A program made the translations under genes and the position numbers. The notes beneath the pieces were generated by a model. That model was not told where the DNA came from. It did not search any database and saw nothing but the letters and a program-made list of their open reading frames with translations. 43,561 nucleotides of DNA, taken from positions 1 to 43,561 of the forward strand of contig PUMQ01000014.1 in assembly GCA_003551435.1 (NCBI GenBank), given 5' to 3'. The stretch comes from Candidatus Nealsoniibacteriota bacterium. Its GTDB lineage: Bacteria; Patescibacteriota; Minisyncoccia; Minisyncoccales; PWPS01. This document shows, one piece after another, positions 32,670-42,347 of the stretch. Position 1 is the stretch's first letter, and every line of letters starts with the position of its first letter.

Positions 32670-33686
32670 ATGAAAGAACCTCACCTTTATAAATCACTTC
32701 CCAAAAAAAAGACGCAGTGCCAGACTTGCGCCCATTTTTGCGTTTTATCTCCCGAAGAAACGGGAAAGTGCGGTGTAAGAAAAAACATTAAGGGAAAGCT
32801 TTACTCTTTGAATTATAAAAAAGCGGCTGCTTTAAATCTTGACCCTATTGAAAAAAAACCGCTCTTCCACTTTCTTCCGGGAAGCGTTTCTTTATCTCTG
32901 GGCGCCGCGGGGTGTTCTCTTTCCTGTAAAAACTGCCAAAACTGGGACTTGTCCCAAGGCCCTAAAATAACAGGAAGGGTGGAAGGAAAAGAAATTTCTC
33001 CCGAAGAAATAGTCAAAGTAGCCAAAGAACAGAAAATTCCCAGCATTTCCTACACCTACACCGACCCGGCCGCTTTTTTAGAGTATGCACTAGACACGAT
33101 GAAAATAGCCAAAAAAGAAGGTATAAAGAACTGTTTTGTCACCCACGGCTTTTTTTCAGAAGAGGCATTAAAGGAAGTACTCCCCCTTCTTGATGCCGCT
33201 AATATAGATATTAAAAGTTTCTCGGACGACTTTTACAAAGAAAACTGCTCCGCCCGGCTTGAACCCGTTTTAAAAACAGCTAAAGAAATGAAAAAAGCCG
33301 GCGTTTGGGTGGAGATTACCACCCTTGTTATTCCCACTCTTTCGGACTCTAAAAAAACGTTTGAAGACATCGCCAAGTTTATTCATGATAAGCTCGGTCC
33401 GGAAACCCCTTGGCACGTAAGCCGCTTTTCGGGACATATTTCCTACAAGCTCCAACACCTTCCTGAAACTCCCGAGTATACGTTAGAAACAGCTTATAAA
33501 ATAGGAAAAAAGAAAAAGCTAAAATACGTTTATACGGGAAATCTTTACGGGCACCCTATGGAAAACACTTACTGTCCCAAATGTAAAACTCTCTGCATTG
33601 ATCGGACGGGTTATGTAACCACAAGGTATGATATAAAAGGAAAGTGTCCCAAGTGCAAAGAAAACCTAAACTTAATTTTAAAATAA
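32670..33686 (+). CDS. amrS: AmmeMemoRadiSam system radical SAM enzyme
   Basis: CQTCAHFCVLSPEETGKCGVRKN, GAAGCSLSCKNCQNWDLSQGPK (CxxxCxxC), C-terminal CPKCKTLCIDRTGY and KCPKCKENL. Confidence 0.94.
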   Translation: MKEPHLYKSLPKKKTQCQTCAHFCVLSPEETGKCGVRKNIKGKLYSLNYKKAAALNLDPIEKKPLFHFLPGSVSLSLGAAGCSLSCKNCQNWDLSQGPKITGRVEGKEISPEEIVKVAKEQKIPSISYTYTDPAAFLEYALDTMKIAKKEGIKNCFVTHGFFSEEALKEVLPLLDAANIDIKSFSDDFYKENCSARLEPVLKTAKEMKKAGVWVEITTLVIPTLSDSKKTFEDIAKFIHDKLGPETPWHVSRFSGHISYKLQHLPETPEYTLETAYKIGKKKKLKYVYTGNLYGHPMENTYCPKCKTLCIDRTGYVTTRYDIKGKCPKCKENLNLILK

Positions 33687-33688
33687 GT

Positions 33689-34303
33689 ATGCCTATAATA
33701 TTTTCCGCTATTGCTCCCCACCCTCCGATAATTCTTCCTTCCGTCGGCTCTCCGGAAGACAGGGAAAAGGTTGGAAAAACAATTAAGTTTTTGCAAAAGC
33801 TGGGAGAAGAAGTAAAAGAGAAAAACCCCGACCGGATTATTATTTCTTCTCCTCATCCCGATTGGGGTTTTGATGTTCCCCTCTTTTTTCTCGCTCCGGA
33901 CACAAGTACGAAAACGGAAAAAATTCTGATCGGTGGAAAATCTCCCGACTTTTATTTGAAGCAAGGAGAACAATTTTACTTCTCAAAAATTAACCCTGAA
34001 GAAAAAAATGTTTTAATTGCAAGCGGAGATCTTTCGCACCGCCTAAAAGAAGAGGGTCCGTACGACTTTCATCCAGACGGTGAGAAATTTGATAAAGAGC
34101 TTCTCTCTGGGTTAAAAAACAAAGACATCGAAAAGATTACAAACCTAGATACCCTTTACCCGGAAGCCGGAGAGTGCGGCTTGCGTTCAATCTGTTTTAT
34201 CTTGGGAATTCTGGAAGCTTCAAAAATAAACTACCGGCCGGAGGTCTTGTCTTACGAGGCTCCTTTCGGTGTAGGATATCTGGTGGCTAACTTTAAAATA
34301 TGA
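33689..34303 (+). CDS. amrB: AmmeMemoRadiSam system protein B / class III extradiol dioxygenase-like (Memo superfamily)
   Basis: FSAIAPHPPIILPSVG, IIISSPHPDWGF, VLIASGDLSHRLKEEGPYDFHPDG. Start trimmed to ATG 33689. Confidence 0.88.
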   Translation: MPIIFSAIAPHPPIILPSVGSPEDREKVGKTIKFLQKLGEEVKEKNPDRIIISSPHPDWGFDVPLFFLAPDTSTKTEKILIGGKSPDFYLKQGEQFYFSKINPEEKNVLIASGDLSHRLKEEGPYDFHPDGEKFDKELLSGLKNKDIEKITNLDTLYPEAGECGLRSICFILGILEASKINYRPEVLSYEAPFGVGYLVANFKI

Positions 34304-34818
34304 ATATTTACACAAAACTTGCCAAAAGCGCTGTAGAAAAATTCGTTAAAGAAAAAGATATCATTCAGCCCCCCGAAAATCTTCCGAAGGATTTTTTTAC
34401 AAAAAAAGCAGGAGTATTTGTCACTATCAAAAAAGATAAAAATCTTAGAGCGTGTATCGGGACTCCTTCTCCCGCAAAAAGCAGTATTTGCGAGGAGATA
34501 ATCCATAACGCAGTGGCAGCAGCAAGCAAGGACTACCGCTTCGGGCCCGTAAAAGAAGAAGAGCTGCCTTTCCTTTCCTACGAAGTTTATATACTAAACA
34601 AGCCCGAACCGGTAAAAAGTCTTGAAGAGCTCAATCCTTTAGAGTACGGAATAATAGTAAGAGGAGAAAAATATAAAACGGGGCTTCTTCTTCCCGGGCT
34701 GGAAGGAATAAATACTCCTGAAGAGCAGGTTTCCGTTGCCTGCAAAAAAGCAGGTATTGATACCTCCACGGAAGAAATTTCTCTTTACCGCTTTAGAGCA
34801 AAAAAATATAAGGGGTAA
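34300..34818 (+). CDS. amrA: AmmeMemoRadiSam system protein A (AMMECR1 domain)
   Basis: GVFVTIKKDKNLRACIGTPSPAKSSICEEIIHNAVAAASKDYRFGPVKEEELPFLSYEVYIL; GLLLPGLEGINTPEEQVSVACKKAGI. ATGA overlap with amrB. Confidence 0.94.
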   Translation: MNIYTKLAKSAVEKFVKEKDIIQPPENLPKDFFTKKAGVFVTIKKDKNLRACIGTPSPAKSSICEEIIHNAVAAASKDYRFGPVKEEELPFLSYEVYILNKPEPVKSLEELNPLEYGIIVRGEKYKTGLLLPGLEGINTPEEQVSVACKKAGIDTSTEEISLYRFRAKKYKG

Positions 34819-35257: not shown

Positions 35258-35329
35258 TCTCCCTTTGGGTAAATTGCTTCATTATATGGCAGACTATTTT
35301 TTTGTCAAAGGTGATTTTTGTTATTTTCA

Positions 35330-35357
35330 TTGAAATAGATCGGATATTGTTTATAAT
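35330..35357 (+). promoter_or_regulatory. Promoter abutting the pilin/C39 gene ATG: TTGAAA (35330-35335), 16-nt spacer, TATAAT (35352-35357)
   Basis: -10 ends 6 nt before the ATG at 35364; predicted leaderless transcript. Confidence 0.7.
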
Positions 35358-35363
35358 GAGCTA

Positions 35364-38300
35364 ATGAAAAAAACCGTTCTCATATCTGGGTTGATTTTTT
35401 GTTTTCTCTTGCTTCCCTTGCTTGCCTTTGCCCAAACGGAAGTTATCTACCCTTCAATTCCCGGAACCTTTTCTCTTCAGGAAATCACCGAATCGGCAGA
35501 AACCGGAGCGGATGCTCTTCCTCTTTTTGCCGCCTACCTCTTTCGGCTTCTTCTTGTTGTCTCTATTTCCGTTGTTCTTCTTGTTATTATTTACGGAGGG
35601 CTTCTTTACATCTTTTCAGGAGACGATATAGAAAAAAAGAAAAAAGCAAGAGGATGGATAACAAGCGCCATACATGGAACCGTTATTCTCCTTATCTCTC
35701 ACTCTATTCTTTACGCCATTAGTCCGAGGCTTCTTACTTTCCAATTAACCGACCTGGAAGAGAGAAGGCGGATATCGCAAATTGACCTTGAGTGGAGAAT
35801 AAAAGATGCCTACTTTCAAGTACCTCTTGGCCGGCTGATAGAAAACGCCGCTTTAAACGTAAATGCAAGAGATAAAGTTTATGACGTTCTCGATGCGGTA
35901 GACGAAGCAGAAAGAGAAGCGGATGCCGTTGTTGAGGGCGGACACCAGCTTCTGGAAATTATAGAAGAGTGCCCCGAGGGAAGGGAGTGTGATTGTGACG
36001 AGCCTTACTTTTATCCTCATCCGATACCTTTTTCTCCCCACCTGCCACACGCAAGACCCCCCAACGCTCTCATAATGCCCGAGGATATCTCGCGAAATTT
36101 TATAGCTTTTAGCCAAGCGCCCCACGGACTGCGCAAAACACTGATAAACAATGCTGTCGGTAAAGCGAAAGTAGAGATTGAAACGTTGAGGGAAAGTGAT
36201 TTTAAAGACGAGCTTGAAAAAATCGTTGAAAAACTGGAAACCCTAATGGACAAGGGACCGACAACCGAAAGTTTAAGGGAGATAAGGGGCGAAATGGATC
36301 GTTTTCTAAAAAAATACGAACAAGAAATAGGGGTTCTCAGCGGGGAAATGAAAGATGCTCTGGAAAATTTGGTAAATGTTCTTCCCAAGGCAAGAACCGG
36401 ATTTAATGACAGCACTTATTATGCCCAGTTTGAAGACCCGTGGGGACCTATGCCTTTTGGAAGAACCACCACCTTTGCCTCGGCTGGATGCTACGTCACT
36501 TCGGTAGCCATGGTGGTAGATTCTCTTCTTGAGCAAAAAGTAACCCCCATTGATGTCCGAAGTTACTCTCTCGCCTACATCGGAAACGGAACCACTTACA
36601 ATGTGGTCCATAACGCGGCCAACCAGTATCCGGAACTGGAGGCGAAAAAACTGCCCACTATGGAAGCGATTCTGGGAGCGCTTGACCAGGGACATATGGT
36701 TATTATGGGAGGCGGAGGAACACCTCACAGCTCTACCCGCACAGGACTTCACGCTTACGTCTTAACGGGCATTGATAGGGAAAAAGGCGTTGTATACCGC
36801 AGTGATCCGTCAGTCCCCTACTGGCAAACTCTGCCAATCCACGAACTTAAAAGAAACAATCCCAATATCGCAGATACCATTTACAGAAGAAGCGGAGCGG
36901 AAAACGAAAACAGTCTTTTTTACGCCTTTCTAAATAACATGAAGATATTCCCTTTTTCGGCCTTAGAAAGCGGAATAAACCTTCTCTCTTCTTTTTTTGC
37001 AGAAATGTTAAAAACAGAAGAAGCCCGCGCATCTTGCTGTGACCCATGTCCTGAAATTTCTCCGTCCGTCCGAATGAAAATTGCAGAAATTAGGTACTAT
37101 ATGGAAAAGTTCAAATACCACCTCATAAGATTAGTTGACGCCAAAGCGCCGCTGGAAGAAGATATTTTCCAGCTTCACAAAGCAAGTATGATAAAAACTT
37201 TGGGCGCAAAACACATTGTTCCTTACACCTCCTTTCTTCTAGACCGTCGGTATCGCGAAAAAGAGGAAGTGGAAGTCGTATCCTACCAAGAAACAAAAGA
37301 ACTGCCTTCTTACTACCGTACCACCTTGTATTATTGGGACTGGGAAAAGTGGATTGAAAACATTATCTACAAAACGAGGGTCGGTGGAGAAATAGTTGAA
37401 GAAAACGATCCTACCACTTTTTATCTCAAAAAACCGAAAGATGATGAGATTATAAGAGACGCCGAGAGGTTAGCAAGGGAGGAAAACTGGCAAACAAGAA
37501 GAGCGATCCCTCCTTATGTTTGGTGGTATCTTGAAAAAGCACCAGTGTTTCCGCCAATACTGCCCGTCAATCCTCGCCGGGACAAAAGTGAAATTCCCCC
37601 CTTCCTCTGGTGGCACATTGTAGAAAAACCCTTATCAGTCGGACCGGACGAAGGAAGATACCCTCCCTGTCCGTGCCCTCAAAGTCCTCCCTGCCCTACC
37701 TTCCCGATAAGAAGTCAATCAGTTAATAAAGAAAATCCTCTTTATGTTTTAAGACAAGACATAGAAGAGACAATAAAAAATCTTCCCCAAAAAATAGCTG
37801 TAGATTACGCGACAGCCGTAGAGAACATTCCACAAGATATTGCTCCTGATGAATTTAAGGAAATGTTTGATTCCCCGGCCGAATACTTAACCTGCGGAAT
37901 GGAAATTCCGGTCGGAGAACCAATAGACATTATTTGGAATCATTACACCAGTCTTCTAAATACAATAGATGATTACCTTGTAGAGGGAGCGTGTTTTCTG
38001 GAACTCCAAGAGATAATGAACCGGCTTGCGGAACCCTGTTCTTGCCCGTGTACTTCTTGTAGCGGCTGTGATGAGGATCCGCCTTATTGCGGGGAGTGCG
38101 ATTTAACCTGTGATAAAGAAGCGATATACGCGGCACACAATGATGTATTAGAGTCAAGAGAAAGATTAAGGGATATCAGAAACCGTATCGCTCTCCTTAC
38201 AGCAGGATATTTCAACGCTCCTACGGAAAATGTCTGCCACCGGTTGAATGAGGATATAAGGAGTACGGAAGAAAGAGCGATTTGCGCGGCAGGAGGCAGT

Positions 38301-38561
38301 AAGTCCATTACCAAACACGAATTAATTACAAGAAAGCTGAATTATTCAAGAGCCGAGCTTGACGCCTGTATAACAAGACCTGAACACTTCGAAGACACCC
38401 TTGAGGGAAAAAGAACGGGAAAAATTCCGTTGTTCGGACCGGTTGTTGAAGAAGAGGATTTACCTCGTTATACAAAAACAAGAAAAGACGGTTTCGTAGT
38501 TAACACGCATAATCTCAACTGGTTTTGCTGTTCTTACACCCCGCTTAAAGAAGGCCAATAG
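35364..38561 (+). CDS. Giant exported protein: signal peptide + VirB2/TrbC-like two-TM pilin module + C39-like cysteine peptidase domain + Cys-rich/helical C-terminal region
   Basis: MKKTVLISGLIFCFLLLPLLAFAQ; two-TM segment FRLLLVVSISVVLLVIIYGGLLYIFSGDDIEKKKKARGWITSAIHGTVILLISHSILYAISP; AQFEDPWG...FASAGCYVTSVAMVVDSLLEQKVTP...LHAYVLTGID...YRSDP; CPCPQSPPCP and CSCPCTSCSGC clusters. Confidence 0.8.
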   Translation: MKKTVLISGLIFCFLLLPLLAFAQTEVIYPSIPGTFSLQEITESAETGADALPLFAAYLFRLLLVVSISVVLLVIIYGGLLYIFSGDDIEKKKKARGWITSAIHGTVILLISHSILYAISPRLLTFQLTDLEERRRISQIDLEWRIKDAYFQVPLGRLIENAALNVNARDKVYDVLDAVDEAEREADAVVEGGHQLLEIIEECPEGRECDCDEPYFYPHPIPFSPHLPHARPPNALIMPEDISRNFIAFSQAPHGLRKTLINNAVGKAKVEIETLRESDFKDELEKIVEKLETLMDKGPTTESLREIRGEMDRFLKKYEQEIGVLSGEMKDALENLVNVLPKARTGFNDSTYYAQFEDPWGPMPFGRTTTFASAGCYVTSVAMVVDSLLEQKVTPIDVRSYSLAYIGNGTTYNVVHNAANQYPELEAKKLPTMEAILGALDQGHMVIMGGGGTPHSSTRTGLHAYVLTGIDREKGVVYRSDPSVPYWQTLPIHELKRNNPNIADTIYRRSGAENENSLFYAFLNNMKIFPFSALESGINLLSSFFAEMLKTEEARASCCDPCPEISPSVRMKIAEIRYYMEKFKYHLIRLVDAKAPLEEDIFQLHKASMIKTLGAKHIVPYTSFLLDRRYREKEEVEVVSYQETKELPSYYRTTLYYWDWEKWIENIIYKTRVGGEIVEENDPTTFYLKKPKDDEIIRDAERLAREENWQTRRAIPPYVWWYLEKAPVFPPILPVNPRRDKSEIPPFLWWHIVEKPLSVGPDEGRYPPCPCPQSPPCPTFPIRSQSVNKENPLYVLRQDIEETIKNLPQKIAVDYATAVENIPQDIAPDEFKEMFDSPAEYLTCGMEIPVGEPIDIIWNHYTSLLNTIDDYLVEGACFLELQEIMNRLAEPCSCPCTSCSGCDEDPPYCGECDLTCDKEAIYAAHNDVLESRERLRDIRNRIALLTAGYFNAPTENVCHRLNEDIRSTEERAICAAGGSKSITKHELITRKLNYSRAELDACITRPEHFEDTLEGKRTGKIPLFGPVVEEEDLPRYTKTRKDGFVVNTHNLNWFCCSYTPLKEGQ

Positions 38562-38565
38562 TCTC

Positions 38566-39636
38566 ATGCGGAAAATATACATTTTTGTCTTTCTTTTTTC
38601 TTTAGCACTTGTCTGTTCTGCAGGTTTTGCAAGTGGAGAAGAAATAGGCCTTGGGGCTGCCCACTCGGATATGGAAAGAGTACGCTTTACCGCCCTTGAA
38701 ACGGGTTCTCTCCCCCTCTACATCCTGTATGTCATTTATTTTCTAATGGCGGTAGGAACAGTTGTTTCCGCTATTGCTCTCATTGGAGGGGGGCTGATGT
38801 GGCTAACATCCGCAGGAGACCCTATAAAAACAAAAGAAGGAAAAGAACGCCTCCTTTCCGCTCTCGTAGGCCTCTTTATTATTCTCTCTTCTTTCCTTTT
38901 TCTTTCAGCCCTTAATCCGGAGTTGGTAGAAGTGGAAGAACCGGAAATTACAGAGCAAGTAGAGTTTTTCCCGCCAGGAATTTATCTTTCAAAAAAAGAA
39001 ACAATTCCGGATGATATAGAGGAAAGTAATCTGGAAGAACTCGAAAAAAATATCCACCGAATAACCTTCTCCACAAGAAACCTAGAAGAGAAAGGTATCG
39101 GTATCAAAACCGTCCGCATTGCCAACCATCTTGATGAAAAAGGAAATATTCTTGATTACTATTACGGCGTCGTTTTACACGAAAAAACTGCTTTCCAAGG
39201 GCGGTGCGAATTCTTTTTAAACGATTCTTCCAAACCCATGGATTTTCCCGTAAGCGGAGAGAATATCTCTTCTGTTACAGTTATGCGGGTAAATAAAAAA
39301 CCTCCGGAAGAGGGTTTCATAAAAGTACATGAAAAGCCCGATTTTAATGAGGATTATTCTTTCGAATATCTTGACCTCCTTACGCCTGAATTTCTTCCCC
39401 TTTCTGTTTCCGGAGTTTGGTCAATGGACATTCAGGGAAATTACGGAGTAATTCTTTCTTCAGGAAAAACATGGGAAAAGGCCGATAACGGATGCGGAGT
39501 ATTTTTGGACTTTAGGCCTATCCCCGACCTCAAAGGCCACCATATGAACACGTGCCGCGTGTGGACCGGACCTCCCTGGTTTTCCTCTTACAAGTCCTGT
39601 GCCACACACTACGCTGTTTTCCCTCTTCTTAGGTAA
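38566..39636 (+). CDS. Exported protein: signal peptide + paralogous two-TM pilin-like module + beta-rich domain (possible beta/gamma-crystallin-like)
   Basis: MRKIYIFVFLFSLALVCSAGFASG; LPLYILYVIYFLMAVGTVVSAIALIGGGLMWLTSAGDPIKTKEGKERLLSALVGLFIILSSFLFLSALNPEL; YYGVVLHEKTAFQGRCEFFLND...ISSVTVMRV. Confidence 0.75.
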   Translation: MRKIYIFVFLFSLALVCSAGFASGEEIGLGAAHSDMERVRFTALETGSLPLYILYVIYFLMAVGTVVSAIALIGGGLMWLTSAGDPIKTKEGKERLLSALVGLFIILSSFLFLSALNPELVEVEEPEITEQVEFFPPGIYLSKKETIPDDIEESNLEELEKNIHRITFSTRNLEEKGIGIKTVRIANHLDEKGNILDYYYGVVLHEKTAFQGRCEFFLNDSSKPMDFPVSGENISSVTVMRVNKKPPEEGFIKVHEKPDFNEDYSFEYLDLLTPEFLPLSVSGVWSMDIQGNYGVILSSGKTWEKADNGCGVFLDFRPIPDLKGHHMNTCRVWTGPPWFSSYKSCATHYAVFPLLR

Positions 39637-39641
39637 GAGAA

Positions 39642-40499
39642 TTATTCAAGCGTAATCTCCCATTTATTGCCCGTAATTACCTCCAAAAAAGCCGTATCGC
39701 TTGGAATAGAAACTGTTCCCTCGTAGGCATCGCTTGTCCGTACAAGAGACCTTTGGTAGTCATTATAGGCATTGACTTCAAAGTTTTCGGGCGTGTGTCT
39801 CGCTTCCAAGTTCCCGACAATAGTAGCTCTTTGGGGTGTTCCTTCAATTCGTAAAACCTCTCCTCCCTCCCCTTTTAATTCTCCGGGCACTTCAATTTCT
39901 CTCGCAGAGTTTACCGACCGCACCTCCACTTTCCAAGGGCCTTCCGCTTTAACCTCCAGAACCCTTGTTCTTCCTCCCGGGTCCAGCAGAACTCCTTCAT
40001 AAGGAGAAAAAGTGTTTACAAACATGCGCGTAGAAACGCCTCCGCCGTAAAAGGTGTGAGTTTCCGTATACCCCGTAACTACAAAATGTTCTCTCTCTTT
40101 GTTTCCTTGAATATAGAAAAGGACGTGGTCCTCTTCTGACTCTTCTATTCTCATTTCTTGAACACCCGTGCCGGAATAAACAATAACATCATGCTCCTCT
40201 CCTGTCCTCGGATCAACCTTTTTCTTTTTTTCTCCTCTTATCATTTCATCAAGAATATCGTTTTCCATTTCATATTCAGTGTCAACCTCATCCCTATCGT
40301 TTTCTTCTTTATCCTCCGTCTCACTAATATCGGTAATTCTGTCTTCCCTGTCACGCAAGCGAGGATCTTCCTCTACACCAGATCGAAAAAGAAAAATCAG
40401 CAAAATCACTGCCAAAAAAGCCGCTCCCGCAATAACGTACTTTCTCTTATCCCAAGCAATTAATCTGTCTATTAAATTGGAAGGATTTTCGTTTTCCAT
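39642..40499 (-). CDS. Hypothetical single-TM protein with acidic linker and beta-rich extracytoplasmic region
   Basis: RKYVIAGAAFLAVILLIFLFR then D/E-rich linker and PWKVEVR / KWEITLE motifs. Confidence 0.65.
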   Translation of the reverse strand: MENENPSNLIDRLIAWDKRKYVIAGAAFLAVILLIFLFRSGVEEDPRLRDREDRITDISETEDKEENDRDEVDTEYEMENDILDEMIRGEKKKKVDPRTGEEHDVIVYSGTGVQEMRIEESEEDHVLFYIQGNKEREHFVVTGYTETHTFYGGGVSTRMFVNTFSPYEGVLLDPGGRTRVLEVKAEGPWKVEVRSVNSAREIEVPGELKGEGGEVLRIEGTPQRATIVGNLEARHTPENFEVNAYNDYQRSLVRTSDAYEGTVSIPSDTAFLEVITGNKWEITLE

Positions 40500-41062: not shown

Positions 41063-41803
41063 TTATCTTTCATTTAATCTTTGGTTGTTGTATCTAAAAC
41101 GTCTTTCAATGGTTTTGAAACTAATTACATCTATCACTCCCTCATCCATCTCACCAATCACAAGAACTTTTTCTCCTTCTTCTATTTGTAGGTATAAGCG
41201 CCTTCCTCTTGTTTTTTCGGTTATTTTCAAATCAACTTTTTCTCCACTATCAAGTTCCATCGCCCAATAATCATTTCTTCTTTCTAAGATTACTCCGAAA
41301 TAAGCATCCTCAATATCAAGATTACCTAAATTTCTATACATTCTTCCGGCCAGTGGCAATCTTTCCTGCTCTGCCAATCTGAAAAAAGAATAATGCAGAG
41401 AAGATTTCTCTATCAAAAAACTACTAATAACGACTATTGTCAATATTGCAAACAGAGAAACAATAAACGGCTTTCGGTAAACAAATTGAAATTTTCTGCC
41501 AATTGCACTAATCAGCAAAATCAGGGCAAAAATTAAGAAAACAAGGTACCAGGGGAACGATAAAAGAATGTTTCTTATAGCGTAAAATCCAATTCCATGA
41601 AAAAGGAAAATATCATTTATCCTTAAAACAAAAACTATTAAACTCCCGAAATACAGAAGAAGTGAGAAAAACAAAGCTAACGAACCGATTACTAAAAATG
41701 ACTTAGCAATAAAATAAGCCTTGGGTTTCATTTTTAACTCCCCTTTTTCAATCTTGGAAACAACTTTCTCAGTTATTGAGTTTTTACTATTTCCTTTTTT
41801 CAT
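41063..41803 (-). CDS. Membrane protein overlapping the sigma factor gene (candidate anti-sigma factor)
   Basis: Three or more TM segments; start overlaps the sigma ORF by 17 bp; C-terminal beta-rich domain. Confidence 0.6.
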   Translation of the reverse strand: MKKGNSKNSITEKVVSKIEKGELKMKPKAYFIAKSFLVIGSLALFFSLLLYFGSLIVFVLRINDIFLFHGIGFYAIRNILLSFPWYLVFLIFALILLISAIGRKFQFVYRKPFIVSLFAILTIVVISSFLIEKSSLHYSFFRLAEQERLPLAGRMYRNLGNLDIEDAYFGVILERRNDYWAMELDSGEKVDLKITEKTRGRRLYLQIEEGEKVLVIGEMDEGVIDVISFKTIERRFRYNNQRLNER

Positions 41804-42347
41804 GTAATAACTTTTTAATTTCGCTACGGCCTCTTTTTAGCCTTGTCCCGACAGTAGAAATCGGGATCTTTAAAATATCAGAAATTTCTTGATAATCTTT
41901 CTCTTCAAAATAGTAAAGCACTATCGGTTCTCGATACTTTTCTTTTAATTTATGTGAATATTTTTCTATCTCTTCTTTCTCTTCTCTTGTCTCGATGTCT
42001 TTTAAGAAATTTTCTTTTCCGGCAAAAGAAAAAATGACATCGGTCTCAAGAAAAAGAAACGGTTCTTTTTTTTCTTTTTTAATAAGATTTATAAACTCAT
42101 TGTGAGCTATCCTATAAATCCAAGGTGAAAACTTTCTTGAAGGATCAAAGCTCTTGATATTTACATACGCCTTGATAAGAACGTTCTGCACCACGTCTTC
42201 AATATTTTCATAATTATATAAGAATCTTTTTCCGTATCTTAATAACTTTTTCTCATAACGTCCGGCGAGAACATCAAAAGCTTCAGTTTTATTTTTCAAA
42301 ACCAACCGAACCAATTCTTCATCGGTTTTATCATCTATTTGTTCCAT
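41787..42347 (-). CDS. ECF-type RNA polymerase sigma factor
   Basis: VVQNVLIKAYVNIKSFDPSRKFSPWIYRIAHNEFINLIKK (region 2) and YREPIVLYYFEEKDYQEISDILKIPISTVGTRLKRGRSEIKKLL (region 4). Confidence 0.93.
   Translation of the reverse strand: MEQIDDKTDEELVRLVLKNKTEAFDVLAGRYEKKLLRYGKRFLYNYENIEDVVQNVLIKAYVNIKSFDPSRKFSPWIYRIAHNEFINLIKKEKKEPFLFLETDVIFSFAGKENFLKDIETREEKEEIEKYSHKLKEKYREPIVLYYFEEKDYQEISDILKIPISTVGTRLKRGRSEIKKLLHEKRK

Follow-up and report, generated by a model that had tools for sequence, protein, structure and literature searches.

The question raised by the locus described here is why a hairpin of two transmembrane helices, of a type known from pilins, should stand near the start of two exported proteins that continue into a peptidase domain in one case and a beta domain in the other. 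The locus lies on contig PUMQ01000014.1 of a Candidatus Nealsoniibacteriota bacterium (assembly GCA_003551435.1), a very small and probably host-dependent organism. All 43,561 nt of this stretch were analysed and are referred to as the window; they make up a whole contig (C16) of a genome of 599 kb in 21 contigs. The two genes, A and B, lie on the plus strand with a gap of 4 nt (TCTC) between them (Table 1). We consider it probable that both proteins belong to the Patescibacterial type IV secretion system (T4SS) as subunits, A being a VirB1-like wall hydrolase on a VirB2-like hairpin and B its crystallin partner.

Both proteins begin with a hydrophobic signal peptide followed by two transmembrane helices, and a preliminary description of the locus had taken these blocks to be related to one another and to resemble T4SS pilins. 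Gene coordinates and comparison of the two blocks bore this out. The Smith-Waterman score of the A and B hairpin blocks was 117, compared with a mean of 32.4 for shuffled sequences (standard deviation 5.8, maximum 65, n=1000), and phmmer matched B to A with an E-value of 2.4e-8; judged by their sequences, the blocks of signal peptide and two helices are clearly homologous. The Pfam family T4SS_pilin (PF18895) matched residues 59-118 of A (22.3 bits) and 57-114 of B (22.7 bits), with E 1e-4 and just below its cut-off of 26.6, and in a whole-genome search A scored 27.6 bits, over the cut-off, and B 26.1, under it. Many relatives scored well above the cut-off. Additionally, a loop signature (GG..Y.TS.G.P.K...AK) was common to fused and short pilins, and the fused class carries two extra motifs, YP near the mature N-terminus (present in most A and B relatives) and INPxL behind the second helix. 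Conservation of this kind appears to exceed the needs of a generic membrane anchor, and does not of itself imply polymerisation. A sequence search for a solved VirB2 pilus starting from the hairpin gave no match. In another genome (G021) we observed a single protein (L101:99-2045) with two tandem pilin-type hairpins and a PF18895 score of 54.6 bits.

It had also been stated that VirB4, VirB6 and VirD4 genes are missing from the window. This is correct for the window, but VirB4, VirB6 and PrgI are encoded on another contig of the same genome (C15), and the absence of VirB4 therefore only shows that the window pair is a dispersed copy. The genes on C15 were found in the order KsgA, a 224-aa protein, a 273-aa hairpin protein, two VirB6-like proteins with nine and eight transmembrane helices, PrgI/VirB3 (PF12666), a 207-aa TrsD-like protein, VirB4 (PF19044, E 6e-28) and a paralogue of A, the VirB6 and TrsD labels being based on topology and gene order, with no Pfam match. 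This paralogue, directly behind VirB4, combines the hairpin with a Peptidase_M23 domain (77.6 bits) and runs off the contig end. A further pair stands at the start of contig C19, where an A protein of 1083 aa with an M23 domain (89.9 bits) and a B protein of 355 aa, 47 % identical to B of the window, are followed by Jag and YidC, with a DnaA-like protein ∼2.5 kb beyond. A VirD4-like protein was detected on C9 (32.7 bits). Nine PF18895 loci score well in the whole genome. Besides A and B these are three further fused proteins and four short pilins, of which one lies on C15 and the other three form an array on C19.

The preliminary description had pointed to a host from the candidate phyla radiation, and indeed the named relatives of B come from assemblies of Candidatus Nealsonbacteria (Patescibacteria), among them isolate CSSed10_186, whose B is 71 % identical. 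Mapping with profiles built in this analysis covered fetched loci of 47 genomes in the order; as loci were selected by a match to A or B, the resulting counts show gene locations and not prevalence among genomes of the phylum. In 46 of the 47 genomes we found an N-terminal pilin-type hairpin on proteins with a length of ≥250 aa, with at least two such proteins in 33, and in 40 of the 46 they shared the fetched stretch with VirB4, VirB6, PrgI or TrsD genes. Co-conservation of A and B, which had been put forward for a neighbourhood survey, was seen across these genomes; A was matched in 48 and B in 56 of 60 relatives at E ≤ 0.001. The commonest gene order was KsgA, VirB6, PrgI, TrsD, VirB4, a small membrane protein, A, X, B, Jag and YidC, where X is a Cys-rich gene described below, and in a second order A, X and B precede VirB6.

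The domain behind the hairpin of A varies. Within the genus it is M23 in six proteins and the C15 copy, and C39_2 in the window and in three genomes (G007, G003 and G004); in the rest of the order C39_2 is fused to the hairpin in G033, G042 and G049, and M23 in G035. C39-type A genes were also found within T4SS loci, adjoining Jag/YidC in G003 (L077), between KsgA and VirB6 in G004 (L084), behind VirB4 in G042 and G049, and near VirB6 in G033. In two A proteins (L106:4422-7004 and L109:10731-13214) a lamin-tail domain takes the place of the peptidase. Giant proteins with an M15 peptidase and a C-terminal hairpin occur near the T4SS in G008 and G015, and giants of this type were observed beside T4SS genes at L089:2370-8828, L094:2-3814, L095:3536-7468 and L096:5014-9459. 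M15 was considered as a third domain for the variable slot and rejected, as it sits in giants that have the hairpin at the C-terminus. Outside the order, long C39 and M23 frames were sampled from 116 genomes across the phylum; within this sample, which covered only the listed long frames, a hairpin-peptidase fusion was found solely in G142, and the fusion thus seems to be mainly a feature of this order. The G142 locus (L152:2781-7458) comprises two adjacent hairpin proteins, one of 869 aa that leads and contains a C39 domain and one of 688 aa, and is apparently a separate occurrence of the fusion. In other parts of the phylum (G158 and G133), C39_2 genes without a hairpin adjoin VirB4.

For A, the preliminary description had proposed a C39-like domain with particular Cys, His and Asp residues in its active site. 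PF13529 matched over its cut-off, and the residues named are kept in the alignment: among the seven hairpin-fused C39 domains, Gln355, Cys376 and His463 were invariant, and position 481 was Asp in six and Asn in one. Moreover, a profile of the fused domains matched the C39 protease 6mpz (E 8.9e-5), with the Cys, His and Asp columns aligned. The remainder of A includes Cys-rich modules, and in many A proteins an iterated profile of the module also matched directly behind the hairpin. The C-terminal one, X, which takes up the last 225 residues of A, is in other families a separate exported Cys-rich gene between A and B, with first-pass E-values for the free-standing form of 4e-7 (G042), 1e-6 (G028) and 2e-4 (G035), which are safer than those of iterated profiles (used for X and for the crystallin tail of B), as these can be inflated. 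That X is fused to A here and encoded separately elsewhere supports the idea that A, X and B act together.

A crystallin-like stretch had been noted in B, and structure prediction agreed with this. In an AlphaFold model built from eight sequences, the predicted local distance difference test (pLDDT) score was about 80 or higher for most of residues 136-356, and a Foldseek search of the PDB with this model returned vertebrate beta-/gamma-crystallins as best matches (best E 7.8e-6; 23 at E ≤ 0.001), with TM-scores of up to 0.65 by target length. On this model the tail of B is a tandem beta/gamma-crystallin of predicted Greek-key fold. With a profile built on it, this tail was detected in 23 genomes of the order, in each case on the last hairpin protein, so that about half of the genomes examined have a crystallin-bearing fused hairpin protein, and several B relatives contain the crystallin motif F..xxYxGxC. 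PF00030 did not match B itself and matched three of 64 B-like relatives, whilst the calcium motif [ND][ND]xx[ST]S was absent from B of the window and from the genus and occurred in four of 31 relatives (shuffling expectation 1.07). Two B-like proteins showed a weak match to Inhibitor_I36, a crystallin-fold metallopeptidase inhibitor. The earlier designation of A and B as a peptidase pair therefore has to be given up, B not being a peptidase.

Taken together, we propose that the window pair is a dispersed paralogous cassette of T4SS subunits in which C39 has replaced M23. A and B would leave the cytoplasm through Sec and stay anchored in the membrane by the T4SS-pilin-type hairpin, with their C-terminal parts outside, as we infer from the signal peptide and the two helices. 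The C39_2 domain of A, like the M23 domain of its paralogues behind VirB4 and beside jag-yidC, would then cut peptide bonds in peptidoglycan, whether in the cell's own wall, that of the host or both, and so let the T4SS or its pilus through; through exchange of M23 for C39 the machine would acquire a second specificity in cutting. The crystallin domain of B might sit beside A and restrain or position the peptidase, or might contact the host surface. A role of A in cutting peptidoglycan for the T4SS is suggested by the recurrence of three unrelated peptidase families with the hairpin, by the linkage to VirB4 and by the analogy with VirB1 proteins of Gram-positive bacteria (PMC12857230). Host attachment, processing or export, as entertained in the preliminary description, was too open a proposal: paralogues in a T4SS operon, M23 in the same protein and M15 giants in the family point to wall opening by a T4SS subunit over a stand-alone surface peptidase.

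Several observations weigh against this proposal. The substrate of the C39_2 domain is its weakest step. In an AlphaFold model of full-length A (seven sequences, mean pLDDT 51) the hairpin was seen, whilst residues 343-432 had a pLDDT of <50 and the C39 fold did not emerge, so that the assignment of the triad is based on aligned sequences and profiles; a Foldseek search with the C39 region of this low-scoring model, for which few C39 sequences were in the alignment, gave no significant match. Outside the genus, a peptidase can be recognised in only a minority of A relatives, and hydrolysis therefore cannot be the sole job of the A position. In many genomes a stand-alone M23 protein is encoded near the T4SS and could cut the wall without a hairpin. 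Distance matrices of A and B agreed only moderately (Mantel r 0.47, p 0.026), in what is, with eight pairs, a weak test. Furthermore, the window pair is not linked to T4SS genes, nor is its orthologue in G007.

This lack of linkage would fit a hairpin that is a mere anchor, with A and B as a surface peptidase and an adhesin that use a pilin-derived anchor independently of the T4SS. Both proteins are also far longer than any pilin, and the giants with a C-terminal hairpin resemble anchored surface proteins. We nevertheless regard this explanation as unlikely, given that fused-hairpin genes lie beside T4SS genes in most of the genomes that have them and that the pilin loop signature, together with the class-specific YP and INPxL, has been retained beyond the needs of a bare anchor. 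An explanation that concerns the substrate is that secreted proteins or pilins, and not peptidoglycan, are processed by the C39 domain of A, as in bacteriocin exporters, with B as an inhibitor or specificity factor. C39 proper cleaves double-glycine leaders, the profile match is to the protease domain of a PCAT (6mpz), and the Inhibitor_I36 matches of two B-like proteins would suit such a role for B. However, M23 occurs within the same chain in sister proteins, and the hairpin is also present in M15 proteins. C39 domains that process leaders work on the cytoplasmic side of ABC exporters, whereas that of A is predicted to lie outside; such processing thus appears quite improbable.

The very variable middle slot, the rapid divergence of paralogues and the dispersed extra copy would be expected if A and B were effectors carried by the T4SS, or tips fired into or onto the host cell, with the peptidase acting on host surface proteins. 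Sec signal peptides and transmembrane hairpins are unlike classical T4SS effectors, however, and the presence throughout the order of one conserved B gene at the locus speaks for a part of the machine, which makes an effector role very improbable indeed. Returning to A and B as T4SS subunits, one could extend the proposal by placing the fused hairpins in the T4SS pilus or its tip, as a drilling pilus that bears crystallin contact domains and interchangeable peptidase heads (M23, C39) and with which an epibiont would breach the wall of its host cell; this extension we hold to be doubtful.

Table 1. Position of genes A and B and of their features within the window (domain and site assignments are predictions)
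Feature	Position (nt)	Strand	Remarks
Sigma-70-like promoter TTGAAA-16-TATAAT	35330..35357	+	11/12 consensus bases; consensus match only
Gene A	35364..38561	+	1065 aa, ATG start; signal peptide, hairpin, helical/Cys segment, C39_2, helical segments, Cys-rich 'EIPxGE' module
Signal peptide of A	35364..35432	+	Residues 1-23; A-F-A precedes mature QTEVIYP; predicted, cleavage site inferred
T4SS_pilin-type hairpin of A	35514..35720	+	Residues 51-119; PF18895; AlphaFold helices 51-84 and 89-119, pLDDT about 64-74
First 'xIPxG' helical Cys module of A	35793..35996	+	Residues ~144-211; motif QVPLGRLIE and Cys cluster
Peptidase_C39_2 of A	36414..36809	+	Residues 351-482; PF13529, 27.1 bits (cut-off 24)
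Catalytic residues of A	Gln355 36426-36428; Cys376 36489-36491; His463 36750-36752; Asp481 36804-36806	+	By alignment
C-terminal Cys-rich 'EIPxGE' module of A (X)	37875..38552	+	Residues 838-1063; starts C-x-EIPVGE
Gene B	38566..39636	+	356 aa, ATG start; signal peptide, pilin-type hairpin, tandem beta/gamma-crystallin
T4SS_pilin-type hairpin of B	38716..38910	+	Residues 51-115; PF18895; AlphaFold helices 51-80 and 86-115
Tandem beta/gamma-crystallin ectodomain of B	38971..39633	+	Residues 136-356; AlphaFold and Foldseek

Upstream of A, the −10 element of the promoter-like site ends 6 nt before the ATG, and the A-B message may thus be leaderless; promoter-like sites around the pair are not more frequent than expected by chance in this region. 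A perfect sigma-70 consensus (TTGACA-16-TATAAT; 35281-35308, minus strand) diverges from this site and precedes a minus-strand open reading frame of 130 aa, for which no relatives were found among the loci read. Convergent with B is a gene for a 285-aa protein with a single transmembrane helix (39642-40499, minus strand), which also stands beside the pair in G007 (L074) and has weak paralogues of 197 aa near jag-yidC in L072, L078 and L082. Further away, an extracytoplasmic function-type sigma factor (Sigma70_r2, r4_2) overlaps a 246-aa protein with multiple transmembrane helices in a sigma/anti-sigma-like arrangement (41063-42347, minus strand), and consecutive radical SAM, LigB/Memo-like and AMMECR1 genes form an AmmeMemoRadiSam set (32670-34818, plus strand). 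A viral origin was rejected, as viral contigs contained no relative of A and no PHROGs family was matched; an NCBIfam search gave nothing over cut-off.

What is new here, we consider well supported, is the addition of multidomain fusions, the secretion machine itself being already known. A survey of Patescibacterial T4SSs (PMC12102498) describes them as of monoderm type. It reports VirB2-like pilins as common, with VirB2 arrays, notes few VirB1 homologues, most systems having none that was found, and places loci with KsgA, RnpA and DnaA close to the origin. The same survey reports VirB1 homologues with M23 and LysM domains that are linked to VirB4 more often in Paceibacteria, and, in Ca. S. 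epibionticum, essential genes for peptidase and lysozyme immediately behind virB4. It also concludes that Patescibacterial pilus biogenesis needs no VirB1; the hairpin fusions offer an alternative in this order. Epibiotic growth depends on the T4SS in the single species examined for this, and the fusions provide a testable answer to how the wall is passed. VirB2 was called in that survey with PF18895 at an independent E-value of < 0.001 and >50 % profile coverage, no length limit being stated. Counts of PF18895 pilins mix true pilins with multidomain subunits, and many profile-defined 'VirB2' proteins in this order are large fusions, some with wall peptidases. We found no account of hairpin-peptidase or hairpin-crystallin fusions in the literature searched, which included the survey in part and did not cover supplementary tables or subscription papers.

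With the T4SS_pilin/VirB2-like pilins of Patescibacteria (PMC12102498), A, B and their relatives share the signal peptide, two transmembrane helices, the loop signature and tandem genes near VirB4. Known T4SS_pilins are ∼70-150 aa long, however, whereas A and B have 1065 and 356 aa, with 240-950 further residues that hold enzymatic or crystallin domains, and the fused class has the conserved YP and INPxL at the hairpin ends. As a proposed wall hydrolase, A resembles Gram-positive VirB1 proteins such as PrgK of pCF10 and TraG of pIP501, which have a membrane anchor and external peptidoglycan-active domains (LytM/M23 and the papain-like CHAP) and are T4SS-encoded (PMC12857230). In contrast to these, no soluble lytic transglycosylase (SLT) or muramidase domain was found here, C39_2 replaces CHAP in the window, the anchor is a pilin-type hairpin, and T4SS linkage applies to the A paralogues (of M23 and C39 types), not to the window copy. 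With Peptidase_C39_2 and the PCAT C39 domain (6mpz), A has in common the catalytic Gln, Cys, His and Asp, which agree in their order and in the spacing between them; unlike the latter, it is not fused to an ABC exporter, is predicted to be extracytoplasmic and is flanked by Cys-rich modules. Finally, B resembles lens and bacterial single-domain crystallins in the tandem Greek-key fold predicted by the model and Foldseek and in the F..xxYxGxC motif of its relatives, and differs from them in being fused to a T4SS hairpin, without the canonical calcium motif.

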